From: Chloroflexota bacterium
GTDB taxonomy: Bacteria; Chloroflexota; UBA11872
Length of the DNA: 38,310 bases
Assembly (NCBI GenBank): GCA_011523785.1
Contig: WTFW01000012.1
Location: 1 to 38,310 of the forward strand
Reading direction: 5' to 3'
This document shows positions 2,491 through 16,368 of this stretch, piece by piece (positions within the stretch are counted from its first letter, which is position 1; each line of letters begins with the position of its first letter). The translations under genes were made by a program, and so were the position numbers. The notes under the pieces were generated by a model. That model saw only the letters and a program-made list of their open reading frames with translations, was not told the DNA's origin and searched no databases.

Positions 2491-2688
2491 ATGCCAAAAC
2501 TCAAAACCCGGAAGGCCGCCGCCAAACGCCTGCGCCGCACGCGGCGCGGCAAGATTACGTCCGCCAAGTCATGGGCTGGTCCGTACCGGCGGCGCAAGAG
2601 CCGTCGCGCTCGCCGCGCCAAGAACCGCGAGCATGCGCTGCCGACGGGGCAGCGACGGCAAGCTGAACGCCTACTGGCGACGAACTAA
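2491..2688 (+). CDS. rpmI: 50S ribosomal protein L35 (bL35)
   Basis: The 65-residue, strongly basic protein begins MPKLKTRKAAAKR, the canonical bL35 N-terminus, and has the family length (about 64-66). It is a structural protein of the large ribosomal subunit. The ATG at 2491 is chosen over a TTG at 2482 because MPKLKT is the conserved start. There is no purine-rich ribosome binding site: the bases before the ATG are a T-tract and a run of C. rplT follows after 9 nt. In most bacteria infC lies immediately upstream in this operon; here the upstream gene is an unrelated metallophosphoesterase on the other strand. Confidence 0.97.
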   Translation: MPKLKTRKAAAKRLRRTRRGKITSAKSWAGPYRRRKSRRARRAKNREHALPTGQRRQAERLLATN

Positions 2689-2697
2689 GGACGACAA

Positions 2698-3051
2698 ATG
2701 GCTCGCGTCAAGCGCGGCGTAACCAAGCGCCGCCGTCACAAGAAGGTCCTGAAGGCCGTACGCGGCCATCGCGGCGCGCGCAGCCGTCACTACCGGGCGG
2801 CGCATGAGGAACTCATGCACGCGCGCCAGTATGCCTACCGCGACCGGCGAGCTCGAAAGCGGCAGATGCGGCGCCTGTGGATCATGCGCATCAACGCCGG
2901 CGCCCGCCTGCACGGGTTGACCTACAGCACGTTCATGCGCGGTCTGCAGGAAGCCAACGTCACGCTGGACCGCAAGGCGCTGGCTGACCTGGCGGCCAAC
3001 GAACCGGCGGCCTTCGAAGCTCTCGCCGACACCGCTCGAGCCGCGGCCTAG
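2698..3051 (+). CDS. rplT: 50S ribosomal protein L20 (bL20)
   Basis: The 117-residue protein starts MARVKRGV, has the basic N-terminal extension rich in Arg/Lys, then the conserved core ([17 protein letters not shown], followed by [15 protein letters not shown]), and matches the usual bL20 length. It binds 23S rRNA early in 50S assembly and in several bacteria represses its own operon by binding the leader mRNA. An AAGGA motif in the rpmI stop region supplies the ribosome binding site for ATG 2698. It is the second gene of the rpmI-rplT pair, and the hairpin upstream of rpmI is a plausible target for its autoregulation, which is an inference. Confidence 0.97.
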
Positions 3052-3084
3052 CCCGCCGAGTTCCCGCGCGGGCGCGGTTCCGCC

Positions 3085-3864
3085 GTGATTACCAGCGTTC
3101 GCAATCCGCAGGTGGCGCTGGCGCGTCGCTTGCATCGCGCCTCGGTTCGACAGCGCGACGGGCTGATCCTGCTGGAAGGTCCGCGGCTGGTGCTGGAAGC
3201 CGCCCAAGCCGGCATCCTCCAGACCGTCCTGGTGGCGGACTACCCCAAGCCCGACGCGAAGCGGGCAGCCGACGCGGCGGCAGAGGCCGGGGCCCTGGTG
3301 CTGACGGCCGCGCCCCACGTACTGGCGGCGGCCGCGGACAGCGCCTCGCGGCAGGCCATCGTGGCGATCGGAAAGCGTCCACAGGTCGCCGCGTTGGACG
3401 GTGTTCCCCTGATCCTGGTGATCGACGGGGTGCAGGACCCGGGAAACGTCGGGACGCTGGTCAGGTCGGGGGCGGCGGCCGGGGCGACGCTGGTGGTGCG
3501 GACCCCGGGCAGCGCCGATCCGTTTGGCCCCAAGGCGCTGAGGGCCGGGGTGGGCGCGCATTTCCGGGTTCCGATTCGTGACGCGGCCACCCCTGCCGAC
3601 CTGCAGCCGCTGTCGAACGACGTTGCTTTCTACGTCGCAGCGGCCGACGCCGAGCGCGACTATCACGGAATTGATTGGACCGGCCCTTGCGGGCTGGCGG
3701 TTGGCGCGGAGACGCGCGGCGTGTCCGATGCCTGGCGAGCCGCCTGTCGGGGTACGGTGAAGGTGCCGATGCTGCGTAGCGTGGAGTCGCTGAACGCGGG
3801 GGCGGCGGCCGCCGTTATCCTGTTCGAGGCCGCGCGGCAGCGTGCGGCAATCCCCCAAAGCTAA
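3085..3864 (+). CDS. SpoU/TrmH-family RNA 2'-O-methyltransferase (RlmB/YsgA-like)
   Basis: The 259-residue protein starts at GTG 3085. Its C-terminal half contains the three SpoU motifs that build the knotted SAM site: DGVQDPGNVG at about residues 114-123, GAETRG near 207, and VPMLRSVESLN near 226-236. The N-terminal part (residues 1-95) matches the small substrate-binding domain with EGPRLVLEA. Enzymes of this class methylate ribose 2'-OH groups, usually in 23S rRNA. The gene position between rplT and pheS is the same as that of ysgA-type genes in Firmicutes, which supports an rRNA-modifying role. The exact target nucleotide cannot be read from sequence. Distances of 33 nt to rplT and 6 nt to pheS suggest one operon. 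Confidence 0.92.
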   Translation: MITSVRNPQVALARRLHRASVRQRDGLILLEGPRLVLEAAQAGILQTVLVADYPKPDAKRAADAAAEAGALVLTAAPHVLAAAADSASRQAIVAIGKRPQVAALDGVPLILVIDGVQDPGNVGTLVRSGAAAGATLVVRTPGSADPFGPKALRAGVGAHFRVPIRDAATPADLQPLSNDVAFYVAAADAERDYHGIDWTGPCGLAVGAETRGVSDAWRAACRGTVKVPMLRSVESLNAGAAAAVILFEAARQRAAIPQS

Positions 3865-3870
3865 CCAACG

Positions 3871-4893
3871 GTGCAAGAGCGACTTGACGCCCTGCTGAGG
3901 GCCGCGCGCACGGAGCTGGCCGCCGCCGCGGACGACGCGGCGCTGGAGCAGTGGCGCGTGGCGCACCTGGGGCGCCGCAGCGAAGTCACCGGCCTGCTGC
4001 GTTCGGTCGGCAGCCTGCCGCGCGAGGAGCGGCGCGCCGCCGGCCAAGCCGCCAACTCCGCGCGGCGCGAACTGGAAGAGGCCTTCGAGACCCGCCAATC
4101 GGAACTGCGGCGCGGCACCGATGGCGCGCAGGTGGACGTGACCATGCCAGGCTATCCGGTGCGACTGGGCAGCCTGCATCCGCTGACGCGAACCCTGCGC
4201 GAGATCCGCCGCGTGCTGGCGCCGCTGGGCTTCCGGGCCGTCAGCGGCCCTGAGGTGGAATGGGATCGCTACAACTTCGAACTGCTGAACATCCCGGCAG
4301 ACCACCCGGCGCGGGACATGTGGGACACGTTCCACATCGACGACAAGGCGCGGCCGGGCGAGTTGCTGCTGCGTACTCACACCTCGCCGGTGCAAGCGCG
4401 GGTGATGGAACAGATCCAGCCGCCGGTGCGGGTCATCGTTCCCGGCAAGGTCTACCGCTACGAGGACCGCGATGCCTCGCACGAGGCCGAGTTCATGCAG
4501 GTGGAAGGCCTGGCCATCGATAAGCACATCACGATGGCCGACCTGCGCGGGACGCTGTCGTACTTCGTACGGGCGATGTTCGGACCGGACCGCGAGTTGC
4601 GGATTCGGGCCAGCTATTTCCCGTTCACGGAACCCAGCGCCGAGGCCGAGATGTCCTGCCACGCCTGTGACGGCGACGGCTGCCCGGTGTGCGGCGGGAC
4701 CGGTTGGATCGAGATCCTCGGATCAGGAATGGTGCATCCGAAAGTGCTGGCCGACGTGGGCTACGACCCGGACGTGTACCAGGGGTTCGCCTTCGGCATG
4801 GGCGTGGAGCGGATCGCGATGCTCAAGTACGGCGTGACCGACATCCGGTCCTTCTACCGCAACGACCTGCGGTTCCTGCGGCAGTTGCGCTGA
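3871..4893 (+). CDS. pheS: Phenylalanine-tRNA ligase alpha subunit
   Basis: The 340-residue protein starts at GTG 3871. Residues 1-90 form the Ala/Arg/Glu-rich N-terminal coiled-coil arm that contacts tRNA-Phe. The rest is the class II catalytic core: motif 2 around KVYRYEDRDASHEAEFMQVEG and motif 3 in GFAFGMGVERIAMLKYG, followed by IRSFYRNDLRFLRQ. A four-cysteine segment (CHACDGDGCPVCGGTGW) before EILGSGMVHP occurs in many bacterial PheS proteins. With PheT it forms the heterotetramer that charges tRNA-Phe in the cytosol. pheT begins 3 nt after the stop codon, so the two are co-translated. Length and motif set are normal. Confidence 0.97.
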   Translation: MQERLDALLRAARTELAAAADDAALEQWRVAHLGRRSEVTGLLRSVGSLPREERRAAGQAANSARRELEEAFETRQSELRRGTDGAQVDVTMPGYPVRLGSLHPLTRTLREIRRVLAPLGFRAVSGPEVEWDRYNFELLNIPADHPARDMWDTFHIDDKARPGELLLRTHTSPVQARVMEQIQPPVRVIVPGKVYRYEDRDASHEAEFMQVEGLAIDKHITMADLRGTLSYFVRAMFGPDRELRIRASYFPFTEPSAEAEMSCHACDGDGCPVCGGTGWIEILGSGMVHPKVLADVGYDPDVYQGFAFGMGVERIAMLKYGVTDIRSFYRNDLRFLRQLR

Positions 4894-7529: not shown

Positions 7530-7871
7530 CTACTCCTCGAAGGTGACGTTGGCGGCGTGGAGTTCGTCGGGGCGGGCGCGGTCGATGGGGACGGGGGTGG
7601 GGAGGTTGTTTTGCTGGATGTAGCCCTTGTCGGCCAGCCAGGCTTCCACTTCCTCGCCGCTGACGTCGGCCAGCATGCGGCCGTCCACGACCACGCAGGG
7701 TGAGAGCGGCTGCCCGCTCCTGGCGACCATCTCGTAGTAGTTGGCCGCGTTGTTGATGATGTCCTTGTCTTCGTAGTCCAGGCTGTACTTGTCCATCACG
7801 GCGCGGACGCCGGCGCTCCAGCCGCAGACGGGCTTCAGGTAGGCGGTGATGGCGGGCTGCTCGGTTGTCAT
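7530..7871 (-). CDS. Glutaredoxin-like thioredoxin-fold protein (CGWS active site)
   Basis: The 113-residue protein is read from ATG 7871; a GTG three codons further upstream (7880) is possible and neither has a clear ribosome binding site. The thioredoxin-fold pattern is visible: a beta strand then KPVCGWSAGVRAVMDKY with Cys16 at the usual position, YEDKDIIN after the first helix, and SPCVVVDGRMLADVSGEEVEAWL, where Pro is the cis-proline and the rest is the glutathione-binding strand and helix. The active site is C-G-W-S, so it is monothiol at this position, with a second Cys just after the cis-Pro. The likely role is thiol-disulfide exchange or Fe-S handling. It lies next to a predicted peroxiredoxin, divergently arranged with 149 nt between starts, so it might act as its reductant. 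Confidence 0.8.
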   Translation of the reverse strand: MTTEQPAITAYLKPVCGWSAGVRAVMDKYSLDYEDKDIINNAANYYEMVARSGQPLSPCVVVDGRMLADVSGEEVEAWLADKGYIQQNNLPTPVPIDRARPDELHAANVTFEE

Positions 7872-8020
7872 GGGATTCACTCACGCAAAGGAAGTGCGGG
7901 CTGCCCGATTCTGGCAGACCGGAGCGGCGGCGGGAAGAGATACGGCCCAGGCGGGCCCGAGTTGACCGGCGACTGCAGAGTCGCCACGCTGCGGGTGCCG
8001 CGCTGGAGAGGATCACCGGC

Positions 8021-8479
8021 ATGACGCGACTGAACGTGGGCGACCGATTTCCCGACCTGACGGGGCGCTGGGACGACGGCCGACCGGCCAGCATTCCGAA
8101 CGACCTGGACGCCGGGCCGGCGGTGCTGCTGTTCTACCGCGGTCACTGGTGATCGCATTGCCGGCGACAGTTGGTCGCCTATAGCTACGTGCTGGACGCC
8201 TTCACAGCGCTTGGCGTGCAGGTGGTGGGCCTGTCGGTCGACTCGGCCGCGGACGCCGCGGCAACGCGCGAGCGTTTGCAGGTGGACGTGCCGCTCGTGG
8301 GCGACCTCGCCTACCCGGACTCGGTGGACGCGCTGGGCGCCTACCGCAACGAGGACCGGCAGTCGCACCAGGCCAGCGCCTTCGTACTGGATGCCGACCG
8401 CCGCGTGGAACATGCGGTGTACAGCGCCACCAACGTCGGGCGGCTGATGCCCGAAGAGGTGCTGCGGATCCTCAGCTAG
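8021..8479 (+). CDS. Peroxiredoxin (AhpC/TSA) with in-frame TGA at the peroxidatic residue; candidate selenoprotein
   Basis: ATG 8021 is preceded by GGAGAGGA. Reading through one TGA at 8150-8152 gives 152 residues ending at TAG 8477-8479. Residues 1-43 (LNVGDRFPDLTG, then AVLLFYRGHW) and residues 45-152 (SHCRRQLVAYSYVLDAF, VVGLSVDS, AFVLDADRRVEHAVYS) together form a complete single-domain peroxiredoxin. The TGA falls exactly where relatives have the peroxidatic Cys in FYRGHWCPYCRRQL, giving U44-x-x-C47. The frame is undisturbed on both sides and there are no other stops. A SECIS-like hairpin follows. The product would reduce peroxides or hydroperoxides using thiol reductants. The alternative is a recent nonsense mutation or sequencing error of TGC or TGT. 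It is convergent with mdh, with 6 nt between stops. Confidence 0.75.
8153..8185 (+). promoter_or_regulatory. Candidate bacterial SECIS element downstream of the TGA
   Basis: Immediately 3' of the TGA (8150-8152) lies a perfect 6-bp stem, GGCGAC (8163-8168) with GTCGCC (8174-8179), closing a 5-nt loop AGTTG (8169-8173). The loop begins 17 nt after the TGA. Published rules for bacterial SECIS elements (apical loop roughly 16-37 nt after the UGA, a short GC-rich upper stem, a G among the first loop bases, a nearby U) are all met. The element also encodes the conserved CRRQLVA, so part of the pairing could be coincidental. A SelB binding site can be inferred but not proven from this. Confidence 0.6.
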
Positions 8480-8485
8480 CCGGAC

Positions 8486-9502
8486 TCAGTCCAGGTTCGG
8501 GTTGACGGCGGACCACTCGTCGATGGGCGGGATGATGCCCATGTCGATGGTCTCGTCGCGCAGCGCCTGGAGATGGGCGTAGGCGGCGTCGAGTTCGGCC
8601 TGTTCGTCGGCGTCGCCCTGCGGCATGGACCAGTTCACGCCGTCCGGCCCGAGCTGCGCCGGCATGGCCATCATCACGTGCGAGTAGGGCTCGCCGGTGA
8701 GGTAGGCGCCGCAGGGCCACTCAAAGGTTGATCCGCCGGCGGCGGCGTGGACCATCATGGCCGTCTGGTGGCCGGGCGACTGGAATGACGAGCGGCCGCG
8801 CAGCTTGATGATGCGGGATCCGCCGTCCAGCACGTCCTGGCGGATGCCCTGCCAGCCGTCGGCGTCCAGCCTGACACCGTTGACGGTTGCGCCCGCGATG
8901 ACGTCGTTGAGCAGCACGCCGTCGATGCGCGTTTCGCCCTTGAACAGCGCCATCTCCTGGCCGTGGCCGCCGTAGGTGCGGCAGCCGGTGACGCGGGACT
9001 GGGACACGCCAAAGTGCTCGGCCAGGCGCGTTTGCAGGCGGGTGCTGTCCAGGCCCGCCAGCGTGCTGACGCGGGAGGCGGGCAGGCCGGAGTGGACGAG
9101 CGTGACCAGCCCGGTGACGTCGGCCGGGTTGAAGACGATCACGACCAGCTTGGCGTCCGGCGCGTTGGCGGCGATGTCCCGGCCCAGTTGGGCGGCGATT
9201 TCGGCGTTGCCGCGCAGCAGGTCCTCGCGCGTCATGCCCTCGCGGCGCGGCGCGCCGCCGGAACTGAGCACGTAGGCCGCATCGGTCAGGGCTTCGGCCG
9301 CGTCCGTGGTCCAGGTGACCTCGGCGTCGGGAAAGCCGCAGTGGTGAATTTCGGCCGCGGCGCCTTCCAGGCCCGGGCCGAAGGGGTCGTACATGGCGAT
9401 GCGGTGGGCGGCGCCGGTGGCCAGCAGGGACTGGACGATGTTGGACCCCACGGCGCCGGCCGCGCCCATGATGGCGACTTTGTCGCTGGTGACGTACTTC
9501 AT
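8486..9502 (-). CDS. mdh: Malate dehydrogenase, lactate/malate dehydrogenase family
   Basis: The 338-residue protein starts at ATG 9502. Residues 8-20 hold the NAD-binding glycine motif (VAIMGAAGAVGSN). The substrate loop reads SGGAPRREGMTRED (residues 81-94), with the paired Arg residues typical of malate rather than lactate enzymes. NPAD supplies the conserved Asn, LDSTR the Asp/Arg pair, and YGGHGQEM the catalytic His. It interconverts malate and oxaloacetate with NAD(H) in the cytosol. Length is slightly above the usual 310-330. It sits 11 nt downstream of an HpcH/HpaI aldolase gene on the same strand, so the two are probably co-transcribed; the pair suggests turnover of a 2-oxo or 2-hydroxy acid, which is an inference. 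Strict specificity for malate is likely but not certain. Confidence 0.88.
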   Translation of the reverse strand: MKYVTSDKVAIMGAAGAVGSNIVQSLLATGAAHRIAMYDPFGPGLEGAAAEIHHCGFPDAEVTWTTDAAEALTDAAYVLSSGGAPRREGMTREDLLRGNAEIAAQLGRDIAANAPDAKLVVIVFNPADVTGLVTLVHSGLPASRVSTLAGLDSTRLQTRLAEHFGVSQSRVTGCRTYGGHGQEMALFKGETRIDGVLLNDVIAGATVNGVRLDADGWQGIRQDVLDGGSRIIKLRGRSSFQSPGHQTAMMVHAAAGGSTFEWPCGAYLTGEPYSHVMMAMPAQLGPDGVNWSMPQGDADEQAELDAAYAHLQALRDETIDMGIIPPIDEWSAVNPNLD

Positions 9503-11142: not shown

Positions 11143-11610
11143 CTAGCCCGAAAGGCAGGCCATCACGGGGTCGTAGTCGGGCAGTTCCGGCACGTCGGGG
11201 GCGGTTTCGATGTGGGCGATCTTGCCGTCCGCGTCGACCACGATGACCACGCGGTTGGCGATGTTCATGCCCTCCAGCAGCACCCCGTAGGCGCTGGCGG
11301 TGGCCCCGAGCGGGTTGAAGTCGCTCAGCACGGGATAGCTCACGCCGGTCTGCTCGGCCCAGGCCTGCTGCGACCAGCCGTTGTCCGTGGAAATGGCGAC
11401 CGTTACCGTGCCCTCGAGACCGGCCAGCTTCTCCTCGATGATCGGGAGCTGGTTGCTGCAGGTCGGCGAGAACGCGGCCGGCACGAAGTTGATCACCACC
11501 GTCGAGCCGCGATGGTCGCTCAGCTTGAACGGCTCTTCGCCCCGGGGTTTCGACGGAAGTTCGAAGTCCGGAGCCTCGTCACCAACCTTCAGCGTCGCTG
11601 TCTCTGACAT
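11143..11610 (-). CDS. Peroxiredoxin (AhpC/TSA, AhpE/Bcp type) with catalytic Cys
   Basis: The 155-residue protein starts at ATG 11610. The thioredoxin-fold peroxidase pattern runs LKVGDEAPDFELPS, then FVPAAFSPTCSNQLP with peroxidatic Cys51 in the P-x-x-x-S/T-x-x-C motif, VAISTDNGWSQQAW, VLSDFNPLG and NRVVIVVDADGKIAH. A second Cys lies at residue 152 near the C-terminus; it could resolve the sulfenate, though the spacing is unusual. It removes hydrogen peroxide and organic hydroperoxides in the cytosol. It lies 56 nt downstream of the ABC exporter gene on the same strand and is convergent with the AIM24 gene. Unlike the candidate Sec peroxiredoxin 3 kb away, its Cys codon is ordinary. Confidence 0.92.
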   Translation of the reverse strand: MSETATLKVGDEAPDFELPSKPRGEEPFKLSDHRGSTVVINFVPAAFSPTCSNQLPIIEEKLAGLEGTVTVAISTDNGWSQQAWAEQTGVSYPVLSDFNPLGATASAYGVLLEGMNIANRVVIVVDADGKIAHIETAPDVPELPDYDPVMACLSG

Positions 11611-13582: not shown

Positions 13583-14908
13583 CTAGGTAGGGTTCGTCAC
13601 CAATCGCGTCTCTGAATGGTGAGCCGCCCAGGCCCACCAGAAGGGCGTGTTGTGTACCAGTGGCGGAAGCTGGGCACCGCTGAGCGCGCCAGACAGGGCG
13701 CGGCCGCTGAGGCTCCAGGCGCTGCCCGTTTCGCGGTCGCGGAAGGCGCCGTCGGCATACTCGAAAGTGAGCAGGCGGCCGTTGACCTGGCGGCCGTGGG
13801 CGGCGGCCATCCCCAGGTCGCGCGCGTCGGCAATCTGATGAGTATCCAGGACGGACAGAGCGCCGGGAGACCAGAGGGCCACGACCGGCTGACCGCCCAC
13901 TTCGTCGTTCAGGACGCGCTGGACGGCCAGGTGGCCAAAGTCGAAGGCTGCGGCTTGGCCGCTGAGTTCCAACGCCAGCACACGCGCGGTTGGGAGGAGG
14001 CGAGGATCGGGTGTACCGTCGAAGAACGGCGGCTCCGCGCGGCCGTCGAGTCCCGCGTAGCCGGTGGCGCCGTAATCGGAAGTCTCGTCCCTCGATGGAC
14101 GGCTCGCGGGGCCCAGAACGCGGCCGTCGGGAAATGTCCGACGAAACTCCTGAAAGCTCAACAGCAGCGACGGGCGCGGCTGAAGCCGGAGCCCGGTGTA
14201 GTCGCCGACGATGGCCTCGCCGGTGAACTGACGCCACCAACTCTGGGTCAACGAGTCCCACAGGAGACGTCCGCCCTGGTGCAAGGCGTCGACCGTGTCG
14301 AAGCGCGTGGCCGCCCCGAGTAGGCGGCGCTCAAACACCTGCACGGCGTTGGTCCACGGGTCGTAGGTGACCAGCAGCGGCGTGCCGCCGACCACATCGT
14401 TGACGACCTCGTGCCAGACGAGGTATCGCAAGGGATACGCCCGTGTCAGCGAACCGATTGACATCCCAACGACCGGGTCGCGAGGGTCAAGAAAGGCATC
14501 GGCTTCCTTGGCCGTCATGTATCGCGGCCTATCTATTGGCTCCCCGCGATAGCGCTCCAGCCCGCTGGTCTGCAGCTCGGTGAGTGCAACGCTGGCTATC
14601 TGGAAATTGGTGTTCCAACGCTGGCCGCGCAGCTCCTCGGCCCGCCGCAGGTCGGCCGGCGCGGCGGTCACCAGCGTCGTTTGACGGGCGGCGATGACTT
14701 CGGGGGGCACCTGCATGCGGCTGGCCGCGCCAGCGATGGAAGTATTTGGCGGGATTACCGCCGCGAATGGCGGCTGGTCGGCCGGACTCGAATCATCCTG
14801 CGACTCGACGGAGGATGTGCCGGAGTCCGGCTCGCCGCAGGCGGCGAAAGCCAAGCCGGCGGCCGAGGCCAGGGCCAGCAGGCGTCGGCGGCCGATGCGA
14901 TGGTTCAG
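13583..14908 (-). CDS. DUF3179 lipoprotein, divergent copy without the CPLC motif
   Basis: A second DUF3179 protein follows the intact one. The frame has an ATG at 15046, but that start would overlap the upstream gene by over 140 nt. The signal (NHRIGRRRLLALASAAGLAF with an AAC lipobox, Tat type) begins right at the upstream stop, where the frame offers CTG at 14908, part of CTGA. I use that, with uncertainty; no ATG, GTG or TTG lies between. About 441 residues. The family core is recognisable (AYPLRYLVWHEVVNDVVGG, WWRQFTGEAIVGD, FDFGHLAVQRVLNDEVGGQPVVALWSPG), but the stretch equal to VTFCPLCNSSVVF in the neighbour reads VTYDPWTNAVQVF, so both Cys are lost. The function of DUF3179 is unknown; this copy probably arose by duplication. 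Confidence 0.8.
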   Translation of the reverse strand: MNHRIGRRRLLALASAAGLAFAACGEPDSGTSSVESQDDSSPADQPPFAAVIPPNTSIAGAASRMQVPPEVIAARQTTLVTAAPADLRRAEELRGQRWNTNFQIASVALTELQTSGLERYRGEPIDRPRYMTAKEADAFLDPRDPVVGMSIGSLTRAYPLRYLVWHEVVNDVVGGTPLLVTYDPWTNAVQVFERRLLGAATRFDTVDALHQGGRLLWDSLTQSWWRQFTGEAIVGDYTGLRLQPRPSLLLSFQEFRRTFPDGRVLGPASRPSRDETSDYGATGYAGLDGRAEPPFFDGTPDPRLLPTARVLALELSGQAAAFDFGHLAVQRVLNDEVGGQPVVALWSPGALSVLDTHQIADARDLGMAAAHGRQVNGRLLTFEYADGAFRDRETGSAWSLSGRALSGALSGAQLPPLVHNTPFWWAWAAHHSETRLVTNPT

Positions 14909-16368
14909 GAGTTGGCGCCGACGCTGTATACGCGTGTCGCAGGCCTGAAGGCCGCCCAGGCGAACCAGAAGTGGTTGGCGTGCACCAGTGGCGGCAATTC
15001 CCTGCCGGCCAGCGGCCCGCTCAGCGCACGGCCTGTCACGTCCCACGTCGATCCCGTCTCCTGGTCGGTGAACGCGTCATCTTTGACGACGAAGGTTAGT
15101 TCGCGCACGTCGACCACGCGTCCATACGCAACCCCCGATCCGACCGCGGTGGAGGTAGCGATGTCTGACTTATCCAGCGCAGACACCGTATTGGGTGTCC
15201 AGAGGACCACGATCTTCTCACCACCAACGGAGTCGTTGACGACGCGCTGCTCGCTCAACACAGAAAACGGGTAGGCGACGGACTCTCCATTGATCTCCAG
15301 CGCGACCACACGCTCGGTCGCCCGCAGGCGGGTATCCAGGCGCCCCTGGAACAGGAAGGGTCGTTCCTCCAGGCGGCCGTCGGACTGGAAGGGCCGGTCG
15401 TCCACGGTGTCGTATCCGCCATACGGGTTTCGGCCGTACGGACGCGAATAGCCCGTGTCCTGCGAGAGCACCTGGGCTCCCGGAAAGGCGGCCTTGAACT
15501 CGTCGAAGGCGATCAATTGCGAGGGAAGGAAGGTCAAATTGACCCCGGCCAGATGACCGACCAGGCCCTCACCCGTCAGCTGCTGCCACCAGGTCTCGGT
15601 GACGTCGTCCCACATGATCAGGTCGCTGTTGCGCAGGTTGCCGGAGACGCCGAAGCGCAGGACCGAGCCGAAGACCTCACGGTCAAAGACCACCGACGAA
15701 TTGCACAGCGGACAGAAGGTGACGGCGACTGGCCGGCCTCCAATGACGTCGTTGACGATCTCGTGGTAGGTCAGGATCTGCAGCGGGTAGGCGCGGGCCT
15801 CGCCGTTGACGCGAAGCGCGATCACCGGCTCGCGTCCGGCTACGAACTGCACGGCTTCGGCGAAGTCGGTGAACTTGGGATTGTCGATCGGCGGGATGCC
15901 ATCGCGGGGCACGCCGCCCGAGAAAATCTCGTCAAAGTGGACCAGCGATGTTTCGAAGTCCGTCTTCCAGCCAATGTTGCGCCAGGCGGTGGCGGATAGC
16001 TGGTCGCGGTCGCTCAGCGAAATCAGACGCTCGGCGCGCGCGGCCACCACGTCGGCCGGCACTGCAATGGGGCTGTCGGAGGCCGTGGCCGGCGCGGGCG
16101 GCAGGATGCCGACGTCGCCCTGCGCCTGACGCACCCGCGCTGCGATGTCGGGCAAACGAGTGCCGGCCGGTGGGCCCGAGGCGGTCGCCGGTGCCTCTGC
16201 CTGCGTCACAACAGGCGCTGCGGCTGGCGAGGTTGGTGGCGAATCTGTGGCCCCCGCCGGTGGCGCGGGTGGCGTCTCCTCGCCACAGGCGGCCAACGCT
16301 CCGAGCGCGGCGCCGCCCAATGCCGCGATGAGCAGTCGGCGGCGCGTCAGATGGATCGGAGTCTTCAT
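14905..16368 (-). CDS. DUF3179 Tat lipoprotein
   Basis: The 487-residue protein starts at ATG 16368. The N-terminus (LTRRRLLIAALGGAALGALAAC) is a twin-arginine signal with lipobox, followed by a Pro/Ala/Thr-rich linker to about residue 75. The DUF3179 domain follows: ARAYPLQILTYHEIVNDVIGG, VTFCPLCNSSVVFDR with the paired Cys, RFGVSGNLRNSDLIMWDD, WWQQLTGEGLVG, SQDTGYSRPYGRNPYGGYD. A second similar block near the C-terminus (YPFSVLSEQRVVNDSVGG, VVLWTPNTVSALD) shows the domain's internal two-fold pattern. The CPLC pair suggests a metal or disulfide site, not established. Proteins of this family are common in halophiles and Chloroflexota and have no known activity. It overlaps the next gene by 4 nt or less. 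Confidence 0.9.
   Translation of the reverse strand: MKTPIHLTRRRLLIAALGGAALGALAACGEETPPAPPAGATDSPPTSPAAAPVVTQAEAPATASGPPAGTRLPDIAARVRQAQGDVGILPPAPATASDSPIAVPADVVAARAERLISLSDRDQLSATAWRNIGWKTDFETSLVHFDEIFSGGVPRDGIPPIDNPKFTDFAEAVQFVAGREPVIALRVNGEARAYPLQILTYHEIVNDVIGGRPVAVTFCPLCNSSVVFDREVFGSVLRFGVSGNLRNSDLIMWDDVTETWWQQLTGEGLVGHLAGVNLTFLPSQLIAFDEFKAAFPGAQVLSQDTGYSRPYGRNPYGGYDTVDDRPFQSDGRLEERPFLFQGRLDTRLRATERVVALEINGESVAYPFSVLSEQRVVNDSVGGEKIVVLWTPNTVSALDKSDIATSTAVGSGVAYGRVVDVRELTFVVKDDAFTDQETGSTWDVTGRALSGPLAGRELPPLVHANHFWFAWAAFRPATRVYSVGANS

Follow-up and report, generated by a model that had tools for sequence, protein, structure and literature searches.

Selenoproteins with a peroxiredoxin-like (Prx-like) fold and a UxxC motif have already been catalogued (PMC13188914, PMC1088965, PMC2398784, PMC9312934), and the class has been in print since at least 2005. 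In its account of families already known, the Sargasso Sea study included Prx-like selenoproteins in which UXXC replaces TXXU (PMC1088965), while the Global Ocean survey reported 225 "Prx-like 1" selenoproteins with UxxC under pfam00578 (PMC2398784). Table 1 of a 2026 review carries the entry "Prx-like thiol:disulfide oxidoreductase, PF00578, UxxC, UxxU", predicted with high confidence and represented by WP_010940744.1 (PMC13188914), and the catalogues keep such proteins apart from the TxxU peroxiredoxins (PMC1088965, PMC13188914). The Chloroflexota lineage considered here is not mentioned where these sources describe the class (PMC13188914, PMC1088965, PMC2398784). For Chloroflexi as a phylum, a tally of three selenoproteins is given in PMC1794560, and among the titles and abstract openings listed for openly accessible journal papers no selenoprotein paper on this bacterial family was found.

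The window, i.e., the whole stretch of 38,310 nucleotides that was analyzed, lies on contig C158 of a 3.30-Mb assembly (214 contigs, 91% complete). The gene under study (Table 1) runs from an ATG to a TAG at 8477-8479 with a TGA as its single internal stop, and its read-through product has 152 amino acids and the motif RGHW-U44-S-H-C47-RRQL. The Pfam model AhpC-TSA (PF00578) matches this product over residues 6-131, spanning the TGA, with 71.1 bits (cut-off 26, E-value 1e-19). The preliminary description of a single TGA in an otherwise intact frame, at a residue that is Cys in relatives, is confirmed, the relatives with Cys being distant ones. The nearest named relatives, Chloroflexi/Chloroflexota metagenome-assembled genomes (L004-L014), are 93-99% identical to the product across all 152 residues. 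No NCBIfam family scored above its cut-off against the Sec44 protein: NF040737 (PrxU), the nearest model tried, has a cut-off of 270 and reached 21.7 bits, and NF040769, the SelL-related redox protein, gave a weak match over residues 10-95 with 23.5 bits, below its cut-off of 120. PF00578 together with UxxC is the definition of the Prx-like thiol:disulfide oxidoreductase class, so that the predicted product, which has both and contains one Sec, is by its sequence another member of a known selenoprotein kind, in the AhpC/TSA family and with UxxC as opposed to TxxU; membership is here set by fold and motif and not by closeness of sequence to WP_010940744.1.

Table 1. Features at the selenocysteine locus, in positions of the window.
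Feature	Position	Strand	Basis
Glutaredoxin-like gene, diverging from the Sec gene, CGWS motif	7530..7880	-	Pfam PF00462, 2.4e-09
Prx-fold gene with UxxC, in-frame TGA very probably read as Sec	8021..8479	+	Frame, Pfam, 19 family copies
TGA codon for predicted Sec44, opening the U-S-H-C motif; Cys in Cys homologues	8150..8152	+	Homologue alignments
TGC codon for Cys47, closing UxxC; in the alignment opposite Cys50, the peroxidatic residue of A. pernix Prx	8159..8161	+	
Putative hairpin of bacterial SECIS type: 6 bp between arms 8163-8168 and 8174-8179, loop AGTTG 8169-8173	8163..8179	+	Pairing conservation, published rules
Malate/lactate-dehydrogenase-like gene (presumed name), converging on the Sec gene	8486..9502	-	Conserved neighbour

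The best solved-structure match by sequence was the A. pernix Prx 5xbs_A (3.8e-09), a mutant form according to its title, and in the alignment, from which the residue numbers were counted, Sec44 corresponds to Thr47, Cys47 to Cys50, Arg40 to Pro43 and Ala118 to Arg126. Pro43, Thr47, Cys50 and Arg126 are catalytic residues of the A. pernix enzyme, Cys50 being the peroxidatic one; the structure matches also include a C50S form with peroxide bound. The preliminary description had put the TGA at the peroxidatic position, and this assignment is not supported: residue 44 aligns with the Thr of PxxxTxxC, it is Cys47 that stands at the peroxidatic Cys, and the Pro and the Arg are absent. The downstream Cys47 was indeed kept, being invariant across an alignment of 19 rows, in which position 118 was Ala, Ser or Pro and never Arg. 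Judging from these alignments, of the Prx site only the peroxidatic Cys remains, Sec44 is an additional, thioredoxin-like first residue of UxxC, and the selenium is predicted to precede the reactive position of ordinary peroxiredoxins by one helix turn. In a relative from the phylum (L056, FYPADWSPVC), Ser stands in place of Sec and the second Cys is retained.

A structure model built from 19 sequences (pLDDT 92.2), which replaced a single-sequence prediction (pLDDT 47.7), places residue 44, modelled as Cys, directly before the helix 45-56. When this model was searched with Foldseek, the best 50 PDB matches listed were Prx-type chains by title, the first being 3hjp_A (E-value 4.2e-12, TMq 0.88). 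Identity with a classical peroxiredoxin was nevertheless not supported, for the fold was found whereas PxxxTxxC and the active-site Arg were not, Cys50 alone being kept, as Cys47. The Sec-peroxiredoxins (TxxU, PF00578) share with the product the Prx fold and a Sec where the active-site helix region begins, but the Sec encoded in the window would lie three residues earlier and Cys47, not Sec, is at the peroxidatic position, and this identity was likewise not supported.

The reading we favor is that of a genuine selenoprotein belonging to the Prx-like thiol:disulfide oxidoreductases, which probably carries out disulfide chemistry through a Sec44-Cys47 selenenylsulfide; the thiol:disulfide activity, its substrate and its reductant are inferred from the motif and the published class name. 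Located immediately ahead of the first active-site helix, Sec44 would serve as nucleophile in a thioredoxin-like UxxC pair and attack a disulfide or a similar oxidized substrate, Cys47 would resolve the intermediate to give the Sec44-Cys47 selenenylsulfide, and a cellular thiol system would re-reduce it. Caution is suggested by the fold, which is that of peroxidases, and by Cys47, which occupies the place of the peroxidatic Cys. The protein could instead be a peroxidase, with Sec44 peroxidatic, Cys47 resolving and the reactive centre displaced one helix turn from that of a classical Prx, a possibility that we consider real and distinctly less likely than disulfide chemistry. It would suit the Prx fold seen in the model and with Foldseek, the AhpC-TSA match, and the presence of Cys at both 44 and 47 in 12 of the 12 Cys homologues in the 19-row alignment, and Sec is a good peroxide-reactive residue. 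Against it stand the replacement of A. pernix Pro43, Thr47 and Arg126 by Arg40, Sec44 and Ala118, and the separation of UxxC Prx-like proteins from TxxU peroxiredoxins in the catalogues as far as they describe them (PMC1088965, PMC13188914). In the literature searched, no peroxidase assay for the UxxC Prx-like group was found.

The gene neighbourhood bears on the reductant that disulfide chemistry would call for. A glutaredoxin-like gene diverging just upstream, as the preliminary description had it, was confirmed (Table 1); the interval corresponds to its longest frame, which starts at a GTG and has an ATG three codons further in. The gene converging from the other side presumably encodes a malate/lactate-dehydrogenase-like protein, a name taken from the look of its sequence. 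Both flank the Sec gene at each of the 28 family loci examined, in both sequence groups of the family (a set that contains the locus of the window itself as well as genomes present in both genome collections, with L074 and L075 outside it), and were found at none of 25 distant loci, within flanks of 1.5-3 kb or less. The glutaredoxin carries PVCGWS in 28/28 family loci and is a Cys protein. Such conserved neighbours, as far as sequence can tell, fit a shared redox task, and a candidate for re-reducing the selenenylsulfide is the glutaredoxin-like protein with CGWS that is encoded divergently; of the earlier proposal that it supplies the reductant, the conserved gene pairing stood, while the role itself is only suggestive.

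Insertion of Sec at the UGA is very probable, as proposed in the preliminary description, and is inferred from several computed lines of evidence: the Sec genes, the conservation of the TGA, the compensated pairing of the hairpin and selection on the downstream region. The complete apparatus was found in the window's own assembly, with selA (516.6 bits), selB (326.5 bits) and selD (366.9 bits) above their curated cut-offs and a tRNA-Sec above that of its Rfam model (71.2 bits), which ARAGORN also called a tRNA-Sec, with anticodon UCA. A second Rfam tRNA-Sec match just above cut-off (50 bits) was discarded, being a tRNA-Ser according to ARAGORN. The results for selB, selD and tRNA-Sec refer to this genome, whereas selA was above cut-off in all 19 genomes of the family. 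The selD of the same genome (G000:C198:23467-24393, L071) has itself an in-frame TGA, at HGAG-U-ACK, and is a predicted selenoprotein; its site matches UxxK, the motif listed for Sec-SelD (PMC13188914), and a hairpin 32 nt downstream of its TGA satisfies the SECIS rules.

The gene was present at E <= 1e-20 in 18 of the 19 family genomes, the sole genome without it being 76% complete, and amounted to 19 copies with one genome holding two. Identity to the window protein was 93-99% in 12 copies and 62-64% in 7. Exactly one in-frame stop, always TGA, occurred in each of the 19, so that the alternation between TGA and TGC/TGT that had been envisaged as a check was seen in 0/19 copies at this threshold, Cys appearing only in distant relatives (residue 44 is Cys in 17 distinct rows, TGA in 6 and Ser in 1). 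At the 30 family loci read, which include genomes present in both genome collections, codon 44 was TGA and codon 47 TGC or TGT without exception. The genome with two copies (G109) carries both versions of the gene, one 97% identical to that of the window (C8:1770-2225) and one 64% identical (C47:26090-26539; L029 and L075). The position of the former on its contig is identical to that of L005, whose contig measures only 5,690 bases; it may be a stray, misbinned contig or a recent transfer, and without it the family count is 18 copies in 18 genomes.

Selection was examined in 14 loci, each compared with the window. Downstream of the TGA, eight close copies gave dN 0.004-0.022 and dS 0.13-0.38, and the comparison with L038 gave dN 0.28 and dS 0.80, against 0.29 and 1.16 upstream. 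The codons of L044 and L016 were out of register in this comparison through an alignment gap and were left unused; in other alignments both have TGT at the site. By these substitution rates, the region following the TGA evolves as coding sequence under purifying selection. A nonsense mutation or a base-calling error at a Cys codon needs a single base between TGA and TGC/TGT, and the assemblies are metagenome bins; such an origin is very improbable given the TGA in 19/19 copies from 18 genomes, the selection that persists behind it and the complete Sec machinery. Equally improbable is that the 43 upstream residues and a downstream part, e.g., from a TTG at 8171, are made separately, as two genes or through regulated termination: mechanical open reading frames do lie on either side of the TGA, but conservation is unbroken across the site (RGHW-U-SHCRRQL), a start at 8171 would drop the residues right after the TGA, Cys47 among them, and the modelled fold draws on both parts. 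That UGA is read as some other residue in this lineage (e.g., Trp or Cys) would accommodate the conserved in-frame TGA and is the least credible of all, in view of the complete Sec apparatus and of a selD with TGA at its own Sec site. With this gene the bacterial family gains a predicted selenoprotein that is well supported and whose type is prone to truncation at the TGA in automatic annotation.

In the mechanism we propose, SelB and Sec-tRNA-Sec would act together with a hairpin shortly after the TGA (Table 1), serving as SECIS, for ribosomes to insert Sec. The preliminary description had this hairpin begin 17 nt after the TGA, which is correct for the loop and not for the stem, which begins 11 nt after. 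The rules stated for bacterial SECIS elements comprise a loop of 3-9 nt, a stem of 4-16 bp, a G in the first two loop positions, a spacing of 16-37 nt and a minimum free energy of -7.5 or lower (PMC13188914), and the hairpin satisfies them with a loop of 5 (AGUUG), a stem of 6, a spacing of 16 nt from UGA to loop and -9.4 kcal/mol. The SECIS prediction called for earlier hence comes out positive but of low specificity, as 101 of the 877 TGA triplets in the window, both strands counted, also satisfy the rules as coded. Folding energy was dropped as evidence: the 51-nt stretch had a z of 0.26 with respect to its shuffles, 114 of 200 being equal or better. An Rfam scan of 8000-8500 returned only two chance-level matches, both below gathering scores. 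Four of the 13 distinct family sequences (those whose first loci are L029, L030, L031, and L038), which stand for 15 of the 30 family loci, have a 51-nt minimum-energy structure that lacks the hairpin, and the hairpin was therefore judged by the conservation of its pairing and not by minimum energy.

All 13 distinct sequences (30 loci) are able to form the six stem pairs, as compared to 0-4 of 6 in the same register of 17 distinct Cys homologues. Pairing in the family stem reached 78/78 cells, against a shuffle mean of 90.7% and at most 60.3% when the stem was slid by 1-3 columns, and none of 500 shuffles attained its covariation score. The family was unexceptional on two of the five shuffle measures, namely the pairs changed on both sides (87/500 as high) and the further pair types (461/500). 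Two stem pairs are altered on both sides, one from G-C to C-G and the other occurring as A-U, G-U, and G-C. Where the subclades differ in two amino acids encoded by the 3' arm (V/A, A/G), the Arg codons of the 5' arm differ silently to match, a correspondence for which selection on the protein alone can hardly account. The number of compensatory events is small: in the main a single split that separates two subclades, and in addition one change within one of these. Judged from sequence comparison, the hairpin alone is not beyond chance and convinces only through its conservation and compensatory changes; the earlier argument that such a hairpin speaks against a random nonsense mutation accordingly fails for the hairpin taken by itself. 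The SECIS rule was passed by the window and by five other distinct family sequences tested, and by none of six distant Sec relatives, three of which have a bulged stem beneath an AGTTG loop; either the requirement of a contiguous stem is too strict or their SECIS differs.

The relationships of these proteins were analyzed in a tree of 36 rows (with 8 of the 30 family loci and one lipoprotein locus with three genes, L026 being left out; midpoint root, for drawing only). The tree has some long branches, and the naming of its groups by codon 44 was done post hoc, with the sequences already in view. A branch with 100/100 support places the window group with 11 all-Cys rows (Ktedonobacteria, Dictyobacter, Actinoallomurus, Thermomicrobiales, and others), and the FYRGDWU group and the lipoprotein FYRAFWU group, both with Sec and both from Chloroflexota, fall on the far side of it. 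To agree with the well-supported branches the Sec/Cys label must have changed three times or more, and a single Sec clade was rejected with p-AU 0.0005 for 17 Sec rows and 0.002 for 14 rows, lipoprotein rows excluded. The three label changes may be three gains of Sec from Cys, or one gain and two losses; for bacterial thiol oxidoreductases in general, Cys-to-Sec has been proposed as the common direction and Sec-to-Cys as rare (PMC13188914). On the same side of the 100/100 branch as the window group are the FYRGHWCPxC redoxins of Ktedonobacter, Ktedonobacteria, Dictyobacter, and Actinoallomurus (L015-L018, L022), which share 35-41% identity and, by eye, a YSxxxxGRL-like C-terminal region with the window protein but differ in having Cys at residue 44 and 0-3 of the 6 hairpin pairs, and the glutaredoxin and the dehydrogenase of the window were not found within 3 kb of them.

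One might go further and see here an independently evolved Sec subfamily of one Chloroflexota family, in which the Prx reactive centre has moved one helix turn, Sec44 attacks a peroxide or a disulfide, the old peroxidatic Cys resolves, and a dedicated, divergent CGWS glutaredoxin serves it; we put this forward tentatively, as a rather doubtful extension. Within one phylum, the Sec and the Cys versions of a single redoxin scaffold fall into separate groups, and Cys relatives together with a minimal hairpin make this a clean case for studying the origin of a SECIS inside coding sequence and the contribution of Sec to a UxxC redoxin.

Other genes with in-frame TGA, or of related kinds, were encountered along the way. 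The FYRGDWUxYC redoxins (L047, L048, L049, L050, L052, and L055) are a separate Chloroflexota group spread over three families (f18, f19, f22), with AGTTG, AGCTG or AGCTC at the place of the loop after the TGA, and fail the SECIS rule as coded. In a genome of the same family and another genus (G010:C11, L076), a near-tandem trio (about 1190-1887, 2564-3601, and 3620-4678) has a TGA in each FYRAFWUxxC, and by eye the genes begin like lipoproteins and contain a linker rich in Pro and Thr; the middle gene has an AhpC-TSA domain by Pfam (4.1e-29), and the first and second are separated by a cytochrome-c-like gene. At E <= 1e-20, 16 of the 19 family genomes gave matches to this type that contain one in-frame TGA, the genome of the window not being among them. 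Within the window, about 3 kb from the Sec gene, 11143-11610 (-) encodes an ordinary Prx-fold protein with active site SPTC, i.e., with Cys and without TGA (Redoxin, 1.5e-27). DUF3179 is listed among selenoprotein families, with UxxC/T (PMC13188914), and two adjacent DUF3179 genes, whose mechanical open reading frames overlap, occupy 13583-15046 and 14905-16368 (-) of the window (Pfam 1.1e-72 and 1.1e-101, respectively); one has FCPLC and the other YDPWT at what by eye seems to be the equivalent site, and both look like non-Sec forms.
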